DNA of 64,000 bases, from positions 1 through 64,000 of the forward strand of contig CAIWTJ010000010.1 in NCBI GenBank assembly GCA_903915535.1, read 5' to 3'. The notes under the pieces are model-generated. The model was not told where the DNA came from. It worked only from the letters and a program-made list of their open reading frames with translations, and did no database searches. Origin of the DNA: Enhydrobacter aerosaccus (GTDB lineage Bacteria > Pseudomonadota > Alphaproteobacteria > Reyranellales > Reyranellaceae). The translations under genes and the position numbers were made by a program. This document shows positions 61,832 through 63,353 of the stretch, piece after piece. Position 1 is the first letter of the stretch; every line of letters begins with the position of its first letter.

Positions 61832-62125
61832 TCAACGGCGCCGGGCGGCCGCGACGTAGAAGCCGCAGCCCAGCAGACCATAGAAGCAGCCGATCGCGGC
61901 CCAGGCTGCCGCCGGATCCATGTACCGCTGCATCAGAGTCAGCGCGGCCGTGCTGAAGCAGAAAATACCGACGGCACCGGCGAACCCGGCGCCCATCGTC
62001 AACAGCGCGCGATGGGAGACTTCGGTGGCAGCGCTCTTGATCGCGCGGCCGGCGGCACTTGCGGCCGCGAGCCGAAGCAGGGGCCCGACGAGCGAACTCA
62101 ACCCGTCGGACTTCTGTCGCGTCAC
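61832..62125 (-). CDS. Phage-holin-superfamily-like membrane protein
   Basis: 97 residues: an amphipathic N-terminus (LSSLVGPLLRLAAASAAGRA), then two spans (LLTMGAGFAGAVGIFCFSTA and AAWAAIGCFYGLLGCGFYVA) ending in AARRR, the layout of the Actino-/proteobacterial phage-holin-fold membrane proteins paired with DUF883 genes. The upstream neighbour is DUF883, 4 bp away, so an envelope-stress operon is likely. Confidence 0.7.
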   Translation of the reverse strand: MTRQKSDGLSSLVGPLLRLAAASAAGRAIKSAATEVSHRALLTMGAGFAGAVGIFCFSTAALTLMQRYMDPAAAWAAIGCFYGLLGCGFYVAAARRR

Positions 62126-62129
62126 CGGC

Positions 62130-62513
62130 CTACGACCGGCGACAAAGAAGCCCCGCGACGAAGCCGATGCCGACGACGGCGGCGAGGGTGGCCAACGGCC
62201 GGGCCTGCACCGTCTCGATCAGGGAGTCGGCGGCGGCGTCGCGCATCTTGGCGGCCTTGTCGAGCGTGGCGTCCGTCATCTCGCGGGCATTCTCGGTCTG
62301 CTCGTCGATGAAATTCTGGGCGGCCTCGAGCGCCTCGTCGAGCACGGCCCGGCTCTTCAGTTCGATGGCCGACACGGCGCCGTTCACACCCTCTTTGGCG
62401 TCCGCTTCCATCGCCGCCGAGAGCTTGCGCAACTGCGACTTCAGGACGGTGACTTCCTTGACGAGGTCCTTGGTGCTGCGTTGGGTACGGGGGGCAATGC
62501 CGTTGGCGCGCAT
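62130..62513 (-). CDS. DUF883 (ElaB/YqjD-like) protein
   Basis: 127 residues: a long amphipathic helix (TKDLVKEVTVLKSQLRKLSA, then VLDEALEAAQNFIDEQTENA) and a C-terminal membrane anchor ARPLATLAAVVGIGFVAGLL with RRS, the DUF883 pattern. These inner-membrane proteins associate with ribosomes in stationary phase. GGAGAACGATC precedes ATG 62513. Confidence 0.85.
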   Translation of the reverse strand: MRANGIAPRTQRSTKDLVKEVTVLKSQLRKLSAAMEADAKEGVNGAVSAIELKSRAVLDEALEAAQNFIDEQTENAREMTDATLDKAAKMRDAAADSLIETVQARPLATLAAVVGIGFVAGLLCRRS

Positions 62514-62577: not shown

Positions 62578-63327
62578 TCAGCCGTCCCAGACGTTTTGGG
62601 GCATCGGCAGTTTGGCGAAGTCGGCATCAACCAGCGGCCGATGGTGGCTCACGCCTTCCTTCTCCAGCAGCATCATGTACTGGCGCACATGCTGGCCGGA
62701 ATGCCAGGTCGTCCGCTCGAGCAGCTCGTGCAGGGTCTGCGGACCGTAGTAGGTCTCGAGGGTCTTGGACGCGGCGTGGTCGTTCTTCGCCCACCAGTTA
62801 CGATAACGCTCCTGGACCTTCCTGCCATAAGCCACCAGCGCATCGGTGTCGGCGTCGGCGGCGGGCTCCTCGGCGAACATCTCCTTCACCAGGGTGATGC
62901 CCTCGTTGGTGCCGACGAAGGCGTCGACGACGCGGAACAGGTGGAAGGCGAGCGTCCGGTAGCTGCGCGGGCGGCCGGGTACGTGGGTGCCGAGCCGGTC
63001 GTAGGGCATCAGCGGGAAGAGCTCGATCGCCGCACTCATGAACTTGTCGACGCGGGCGTGGAGCTGTTCGACCGAGAGTTGCGGGCCGCCGTCCTCGTTC
63101 AGGCCGACGAAGTCGATGATTTGCTGGGTGTTCTGGCCGAAGATGTACTTGTCGCCGCGCGACAGGACGGGAACGGTGCGCAGGCCGAGCTTCTGCAGCT
63201 GGGCCATCCCGCCTTCTTCAAGCACATTCACCGAGACGAATTCGATCCCACGGACCGATAGAAACTCTTTGAGTCTCAGACAGCTGGTTCAACCAGGCTG
63301 CCAGAAGACCTTGAACGGTTCGCTCAT
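62578..63327 (-). CDS. Candidate selenoprotein: glutaredoxin domain (UxxC) fused to DinB-like domain
   Basis: Read with UGA as selenocysteine, the 249-residue protein starts MSEPFKVFWQPGUTSCLRLK. The UGA (63291-63289, codon 13) stands exactly where the first Cys of the glutaredoxin CxxC belongs; C16 is present. The fold continues as FLSVRGIEFVSVNVLEEGG, LRTVPVLSRGDKYIFGQN, then a DinB-like helical domain (YRTLAFHLFRVVDAFV, LLERTTWHSGQHVRQYMML) with metal-like His residues. GGAG lies 7 nt before ATG 63327. The alternative GTG at 63231 has no ribosome site and would delete the redox motif. A TGC/TGT-to-TGA mutation is the main alternative. Confidence 0.65.
63238..63267 (-). promoter_or_regulatory. 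SECIS-like hairpin after in-frame UGA
   Basis: In the mRNA: GAG, a bulged U, UUC, a U-C mismatch, AUC, the 9-nt loop GGUCCGUGG, then GAU, GAA, UUC. The loop opens with GGUC, as in the E. coli fdhF SECIS, and its first G is 33 nt after the UGA, inside the 16-37 nt range described for bacterial SECIS elements. Identified by hand, not by folding software. Confidence 0.5.
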
Positions 63328-63353
63328 GGCGCTACTCCAGACAGATCGCGAGC

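Follow-up and report, generated by a model that had tools for sequence, protein, structure and literature searches.

Evidence for a glutaredoxin–DinB fusion selenoprotein in Reyranella and other Alphaproteobacteria

By profile comparison, the solved protein closest to the N-terminal part of the one described here (E 3e-12) is cGrx1 of Clostridium oremlandii (7c10), which is reported to be a native selenoprotein with its catalytic residue at position 13 and a resolving cysteine at position 16 (PMC7642778). The C-terminal part resembles the DinB/YfiT S-transferase-like superfamily, a group that includes the bacillithiol and mycothiol transferases and the mycothiol-dependent maleylpyruvate isomerase (MDMPI). 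Most members of the superfamily are described as holding a metal by means of three histidines, and relatives of the domain conjugate bacillithiol or mycothiol (PMC10950700). An inventory published in 2026 lists 119 prokaryotic selenoprotein families, and single-domain glutaredoxins and glutaredoxin-like proteins are among them (PMC13188914).

We analysed a stretch of 64,000 nucleotides from Enhydrobacter aerosaccus, referred to here as the window, and followed up one gene on its minus strand that is interrupted by a UGA codon. Our estimate, based on sequence comparisons, is a probability of roughly 0.93 that this gene encodes a selenoprotein, in which the UGA at codon 13 of a fusion of glutaredoxin (Grx) and DinB is read as selenocysteine (Sec).

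An in-frame UGA and its counterparts in relatives

The features of the reading frame are as follows.

62578..63327, minus strand: whole coding frame, 249 residues with a predicted Sec at position 13, aligning over its full length with homologues
63289..63291, minus strand: in-frame UGA, codon 13, the first position of UxxC, predicted to be read as selenocysteine
63335..63338, minus strand: GGAG resembling a ribosome-binding site, 7 nt upstream of the ATG, identified from the sequence

The frame that the initial annotation had drawn from the ATG at 63327, preceded by a GGAG ribosome site, was recovered with both elements in place. It consists of 250 codons, and apart from the terminal TGA at codon 250 (62580..62578) the only stop in it is the TGA at codon 13 (63291..63289), so that the earlier description of one UGA at the first Cys position of a CxxC motif in an otherwise intact frame holds. 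The context of the codon is FWQPG-U-TSCLRLKEFL, and the active-site motif is U13-T-S-C16.

It had been argued that a chance nonsense change at this position is unlikely, and the relatives bear this out. The gene is carried by 34 of the 37 genomes of the genus (those without it are G006, G008 and G025) and codon 13 is TGA in all 34; TGA is thus fixed across species, which also disposes of a read error concealing TGC or TGT. One of these genomes (G004) has an extra paralogue with Cys (TGC; L048, G004:C218) beside the TGA form. Most relatives with names are assigned to Reyranella, to 'Enhydrobacter aerosaccus' or to unclassified Rhodospirillales or Alphaproteobacteria, and on this basis the window probably lies in a Reyranella genome; records of R. 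massiliensis, R. soli and R. aquatilis are among those with the gene. From the 171 loci confirmed in this named collection, 80 were retained. Codon 13 was TGA in 60 of them, TGC in 17 and TGT in two, and the remaining locus did not cover the codon; the proportion of Cys in this collection (19 of the 79 readable loci) is biased, as Cys is written into one of the patterns used for the search.

In an even sample of the class, 45 of 385 genomes gave a match at E 0.001. These included 33 full-length copies in 32 genomes, 19 with one TGA and 14 free of stops, and the other matches cover the glutaredoxin part alone. Eight family codes (f1, f13, f55, f68, f81, f94, f96 and f114) are represented among the TGA copies, and every TGA copy that was fetched has its stop at codon 13. 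All 11 stop-free copies fetched have TGC or TGT at this codon, those of G371 and G402 and the second copy of G341 having been left out of the reading. Hence, homologues with Cys at position 13, which the initial annotation had anticipated, are present in both collections. One genome (G341, contigs 24 and 25) carries one TGA form and one stop-free form.

Further afield, only two of 398 genomes in a sample of the phylum matched at E 1e-30 or less, and these were the genome studied here and one congener. Among viral contigs there were 34 pattern matches, none of which was confirmed as a relative. Plasmid records yielded 13 homologues with 29.6–42.7% identity. Some carry no annotation, and the others are called 'DinB family protein', 'glutaredoxin domain-containing protein' or 'hypothetical protein'; the six of the 13 that were inspected have CSSC and no stop. 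On a plasmid of Roseomonas marmotae (L188), the Cys form is flanked by an isochorismatase-family gene on one side and an AtzG-like gene on the other, possibly a catabolic context.

When residue 13 was masked and a tree of 104 distinct proteins was built, the distribution of Sec and Cys forms needed two changes, compared to a mean of 24.2 when shuffled; this was a quick tree with several long branches and a single change is also compatible with it. Sec therefore appears to have been gained or lost rarely, and it follows that the association with selA described below is clustered by descent and reflects few independent events.

Three genes that lie downstream of the selenoprotein gene in the window are also found next to homologues, in 41, 39 and 34 of the 80 loci, and the upstream neighbour in five. 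Among the 28 loci from L108 on, only L113 and L115 gave neighbour matches. A DUF883-like gene (YqjD/ElaB type) and a gene for a small membrane protein, both named by eye, follow the selenoprotein gene (61832–62513, minus strand), and these adjoin homologues in 41 and 39 of the 80 loci, nearly all of them from near relatives. No common context could be made out in the frames of seven distant loci viewed by eye, and a clustering of neighbouring frames was contaminated with spurious ones that arise from high GC. The neighbours are conserved only among near relatives.

The region downstream of the UGA

Two further features lie in the RNA that follows the UGA.

63242..63258, minus strand: candidate SECIS hairpin, 30 nt downstream of the UGA, with a 6-bp stem UCGGUC/GAUCGA and loop CGUGG
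63259..63288, minus strand: spacer leading from the UGA to the hairpin, in which rare codons (AGA, TTT, CTA) are frozen, recognised from codon counts and from a synonymous divergence that is roughly halved

A hairpin with a GGUC-containing loop had been proposed 33 nt downstream of the UGA. The hairpin is real, but it starts 30 nt after the UGA and the GGUC is found in its 5′ arm and not in the loop. The hairpin has the consensus UCGGUC-CGUGG-GAUCGA, and its 5-nt loop, CGUGN, lies 36 nt after the UGA in the window. In bacterial SECIS elements this spacing is 16–37 nt, and the window hairpin is at the far edge of that range. The small apical loop of the window hairpin includes a G, as described for bacterial SECIS elements (PMC1088965).

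From a gap-free alignment of 57 distinct 60-nt stretches, each beginning with the UGA, RNAalifold returned, unprompted, one hairpin in which columns 34–39 pair with columns 45–50 and columns 40–44 form the loop. At two of the six pairs both sides have changed with pairing kept, the compensatory changes being from UA to CG in five rows and from UA to GC or GU in two. Overall, 99.1% of cells are paired, a level matched by none of 500 shuffles, and seven cells are changed on both sides versus 0.5 in the shuffles; two of the five covariation measures were reached by 10 of the 500. Shuffling ignores relatedness whereas sliding the alignment keeps it, and slides of −3 to −1 paired 22–61% of cells and slides of +1 to +3 paired 6–29%, the maximum being 61.1%. 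An upstream hairpin suggested by the near relatives, AGACUC AAA GAGUUU (columns 16–30; 63276..63262), was also considered and was rejected, as 86.5% of its cells are paired and none of its pairs shows a change on both sides.

The hairpin goes with the UGA. At the fixed place, the stem and the GUG loop are complete in 56 of the 57 distinct TGA rows versus none of the 30 Cys rows, and when any 6-bp stem with a 5-nt loop within 60 nt was accepted, it was found in 57 of 57 TGA rows and three of 30 Cys rows. One distant homologue (L116:5037-5096) retains TGA at codon 13, and the hairpin predicted for it is a different one that lies closer to the TGA and has an 8-bp stem and a GUU loop; it may be a SECIS of separate origin. 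A pattern consisting of TGA, 30 nt and the letters of the hairpin gave one match in each of nine of 12 genomes, all inside the Grx–DinB gene; it was absent from the three genus genomes that do not have the gene, and the backwards control gave no match. Folded as a single sequence, the 75 nt around the hairpin are no stabler than shuffles (z −0.30), and the support for the hairpin therefore comes from the comparison between species and not from single-sequence folding. No Rfam family matched the window at its gathering score, and a relaxed Rfam scan of 301 bases gave two snoRNA matches, both far below their gathering scores.

The spacer is unusual in its codons. Across the 77 full-length Sec genes that are distinct, AGA encodes Arg18 in 60 of 72, TTT encodes Phe22 in 64 of 71 and CTA encodes Leu23 in 57 of 76, compared to five of 1,320 Arg codons, 68 of 803 Phe codons and 33 of 2,013 Leu codons elsewhere in the same genes (outside codons 13–30). 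Among near relatives the spacer codons AGA CTC AAA GAG TTT (63276..63262) are frozen. Synonymous divergence (pS) in 29 ungapped genes was 0.217 for codons 14–33 versus 0.468 for codons 2–12 and 0.486 for codons 34–250, and non-synonymous divergence was low before and after the UGA (0.057 and 0.031), with pN/pS of 0.12 for codons 2–12 and 0.14 for codons 14–33; many of the genes in these codon and divergence counts are close relatives. These values indicate that the RNA following the UGA is under selection, as is the protein on either side of this codon.

These observations bear on whether the UGA is simply a genuine stop, in which case the gene would be a pseudogene, the result of a sequencing error, or a source of the DinB part alone, with translation starting inside the frame, for example at GTG 63231. 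An ORF of 217 codons does start at that GTG and a truncated product is possible in principle. Against this are the UGA in every one of the 34 gene carriers of the genus and in eight family codes, the purifying selection on both sides of the UGA, and the covarying hairpin that is tied to it. On the grounds of conservation and selection we reject pseudogene, sequencing error and restart, and we consider it highly improbable that the UGA terminates translation.

Selenocysteine machinery and its retention

The reading of the UGA as Sec requires its own apparatus, and selA, selB, selD and tRNA-Sec, which the initial annotation had proposed looking for, are all present in the same genome, each above its curated cut-off. 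The tRNA-Sec scored 71.2 bits versus a gathering score of 47, and ARAGORN agrees, with anticodon tca. The scores were 469.1 bits for selB and 557.9 bits for selA, both above the curated cut-offs, and 434.3 bits for selD versus a cut-off of 125. selA adjoins selB, the tRNA-Sec is found 31 nt downstream of the selB frame, and selD is located away from both. At L050:3582-3678 (minus strand) the tRNA-Sec lies after the selB frame and not inside it; in other Alphaproteobacteria, tRNA-Sec nested in selB has been described (PMC8124441).

Of the 34 genus genomes with the gene, selB is above the cut-off in 33, the exception being G019 (89% complete), and the match in G007 (73% complete) is partial. A tRNA-Sec of about 70 bits was found in 32, and not in G007 and G019; RF01852 matches weakly in every genome, controls included, owing to other tRNAs, and only the matches of about 70 bits are counted as tRNA-Sec. 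A further genome with the TGA gene, G048 (77% complete), has no SelA or SelB above the cut-off, and tRNA-Sec was not found in it. selA is present in 16 of the 17 TGA genomes tested (it is missing in G048) versus three of 13 Cys-only genomes, the 17 being drawn from the 19 TGA genomes of the class sample with G016 and G030 left out. It is also present in all three of the genus genomes that lack the Grx–DinB gene. Two genomes with the Cys form (G094 and G232) have selA and no match to the formate dehydrogenase FDH-O, and may hold some other selenoprotein.

Though sequence alone cannot show which amino acid is inserted, and a near-cognate tRNA could read through the UGA with a residue other than Sec, the distribution of selA together with the full Sec machinery, the SECIS-type hairpin that is downstream of the UGA and absent from Cys versions, and the presence of Cys, the counterpart of Sec, in every non-TGA copy whose codon 13 was read, make insertion of another residue a very poor candidate. 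We regard insertion of Sec at codon 13 as near certain on these comparative grounds. The proposal that this UGA is selenocysteine thus stands, upheld by the conserved UGA, the Sec machinery, the Cys homologues and a covarying hairpin that is lost in the Cys versions.

Formate dehydrogenase does not account for the apparatus in all of these bacteria. With a match to TIGR01553 at E 1e-100 or less as the criterion, 29 of 56 genomes have an FDH-O alpha subunit, and in almost every one of them its gene contains an in-frame TGA. The subunit is present in G008 and G025, neither of which has the Grx–DinB gene, and G006 (82% complete) has neither gene. In the genome of the window there was no FDH-O match above the cut-off, and weak relatives, without stops, were the only ones seen. 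No FDH-O match was obtained for 24 of the 50 genomes with the TGA gene. In 23 of the 24, selA or selB exceeds its cut-off, and one of the 23 is G016, a single contig listed as 100% complete; some of the 24 assemblies are incomplete (for example, G048, 77%; G090, 87%; G010, 89%). We hypothesise that Grx–DinB is the only selenoprotein of the genomes that lack FDH-O. More broadly, and tentatively, the gene may represent a new family, a glutathione-transferase-like Sec-glutaredoxin joined to a metal-binding DinB enzyme, that is the main or only reason for the Sec apparatus in many Alphaproteobacteria lacking FDH-O. The gene points to a use besides formate dehydrogenase for which such bacteria may maintain their selenium machinery.

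Domains, possible role and comparison with known systems

Two domains were recognised in the predicted protein.

63142..63309, minus strand: glutaredoxin domain (PF00462), residues 7–62, E 4.5e-8, above the Pfam cut-off and supported by fold matches
62620..63081, minus strand: DinB-type four-helix domain, approximately residues 83–236, assigned from the predicted fold and invariant His129, His209 and His213

The PF00462 match of the window protein scored 33.6 bits versus a Pfam cut-off of 22.9, and the Glutaredoxin profile is matched at E 0.01 or less by all 38 rows of the protein alignment (A3, with the window protein included). For PF12867 (DinB_2) the window protein is below the Pfam gathering score (16.9 bits versus 24.8), and 34 of the 38 rows match it at E 0.01 or less, the best at 6.6e-9. 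Pro53, His129, His209 and His213 are invariant in all 38 sequences. The role of the invariant Pro in glutaredoxins is known, and UxxC with this Pro is the layout of thiol-disulfide chemistry.

An AlphaFold model built from the 38-row alignment had a pLDDT of 93.3 and a pTM of 0.89, and the best Foldseek E value for the DinB-type fold was 1.3e-4. The best structural match is DR0053 (6iz2), a DinB/YfiT protein (Z 15.2, rmsd 2.4, 142 residues aligned). Among the matches listed, ranks 1–14 all fall on the C-terminal part and most are labelled as DinB, YfiT, metal-dependent hydrolase or mycothiol enzyme, with 2yqy and 5cof labelled otherwise. Glutaredoxin-like folds, which match the N-terminal part, rank after them (3zit, Z 12.6; cGrx1 7c10, Z 12.0). 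The C-terminal matches include MDMPI (2nsg, Z 13.7), a mycothiol S-transferase (8f5v, Z 12.9), SenA (8k5i, solved with a thiosugar, Z 10.7) and BstA (5wk0, Z 9.9), and for helical bundles such as these a Z below about 13 may mean merely a common helical arrangement. SenA has a role in selenoneine synthesis. Full-length glutathione transferases in the Foldseek list have a TM of 0.26–0.38 to the query and an rmsd of 9 or more, and judged from the model the resemblance to them is one of layout only. A solved Grx–DinB fusion was found neither by profile, where all 31 hits lie within the first 80 profile positions, nor among the best 50 matches listed in each of two structural comparisons. By its modelled fold and His triad, the C-terminal domain belongs to the DinB/S-transferase-like superfamily, and by analogy its three-His site probably holds a metal.

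In the mechanism that we propose, SelB carrying Sec-tRNA-Sec would bind the hairpin at 63258..63242 and insert Sec at the UGA of codon 13, giving a protein of 249 residues with a U13-T-S-C16 site in which the glutaredoxin is followed by a DinB-fold helical domain whose three-His site probably binds metal. The selenol or selenolate of residue 13 and the resolving Cys16 would then reduce or transfer a low-molecular-weight thiol, probably glutathione, and the DinB domain with its metal site may bind, supply or receive that thiol. The whole would act on disulfides or electrophiles, as a thiol transferase or reductase contained in one chain. This thiol-transferase role is possible, at somewhat less than even odds. 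Less likely again is that the selenoprotein serves not in thiol transfer but in the handling of metals or metalloids (mercury, arsenic) or in organoselenium or thiol-imidazole chemistry. Several selenoproteins, including the UXX-star family, are thought to act on metals (PMC13188914), and the presence of SenA among the structural matches of the C-terminal part would fit organoselenium chemistry; there is little against such roles beyond the layout of UxxC and invariant Pro53, which points to thiol-disulfide chemistry.

A Grx–DinB fusion is absent from the 119-family Table 1 of the 2026 inventory, and 'DinB' does not occur in its main text (PMC13188914) or in the main texts of three other papers on selenoproteins (PMC1088965, PMC9312934 and PMC2398784). 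In titles and the starts of abstracts in the open-licence literature, no description of a Grx–DinB selenoprotein or of a selenoprotein of Reyranella was found, and no title among the matches listed concerned a glutaredoxin/DinB fusion or a DinB thiol transferase. As far as its table and main text go, the Grx–DinB selenoprotein is thus missing from the 2026 inventory, and it may have been described or annotated elsewhere. Gene callers that take every UGA for a stop would break this gene up or omit it, and a recurrent alphaproteobacterial selenoprotein could go unseen as a result.

The window protein does not reach the cut-off of any NCBIfam family. A glutaredoxin-like domain with Sec is common to it and to the UXX-star selenoproteins, but its scores are far below the curated UXX-star cut-offs (NF041212, 23.1 versus 66; NF041211, 15.6 versus 100; NF047338, 18.4 versus 97). 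It is also outside the definition of the C. oremlandii type, a single-domain Sec-glutaredoxin with UPxC. The window protein and cGrx1 are alike in the glutaredoxin fold and in the placing of the catalytic residue at 13 and of the resolving Cys at 16, but cGrx1 is a single domain of 84 residues with U(C)PxC, whereas the window protein has UTSC and a C-terminal DinB-type domain of approximately 150 residues. A four-helix fold and three His are common to this domain and the DinB/YfiT superfamily, but here it is fused behind a glutaredoxin, and the identity is only 14% to the best match and 20% to 8f5v. The Sec-containing FDH-O of the same genus likewise has a UGA for Sec, and the hairpin predicted for it (in G003 and G012 of the genus and G093 of the class) resembles that of Grx–DinB in having a 3-nt loop that starts with GU; it is a different enzyme, and its loop lies 19 nt after the UGA, compared to 36–37 nt in Grx–DinB. 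The SECIS of Grx–DinB, with its compensatory changes and clean loss in the Cys versions, is a good comparative case. The Cys Grx–DinB proteins of plasmid records have the same two domains, with Cys in place of Sec in the six inspected, and natural Sec/Cys pairs of one two-domain enzyme provide the means to test what Sec adds.
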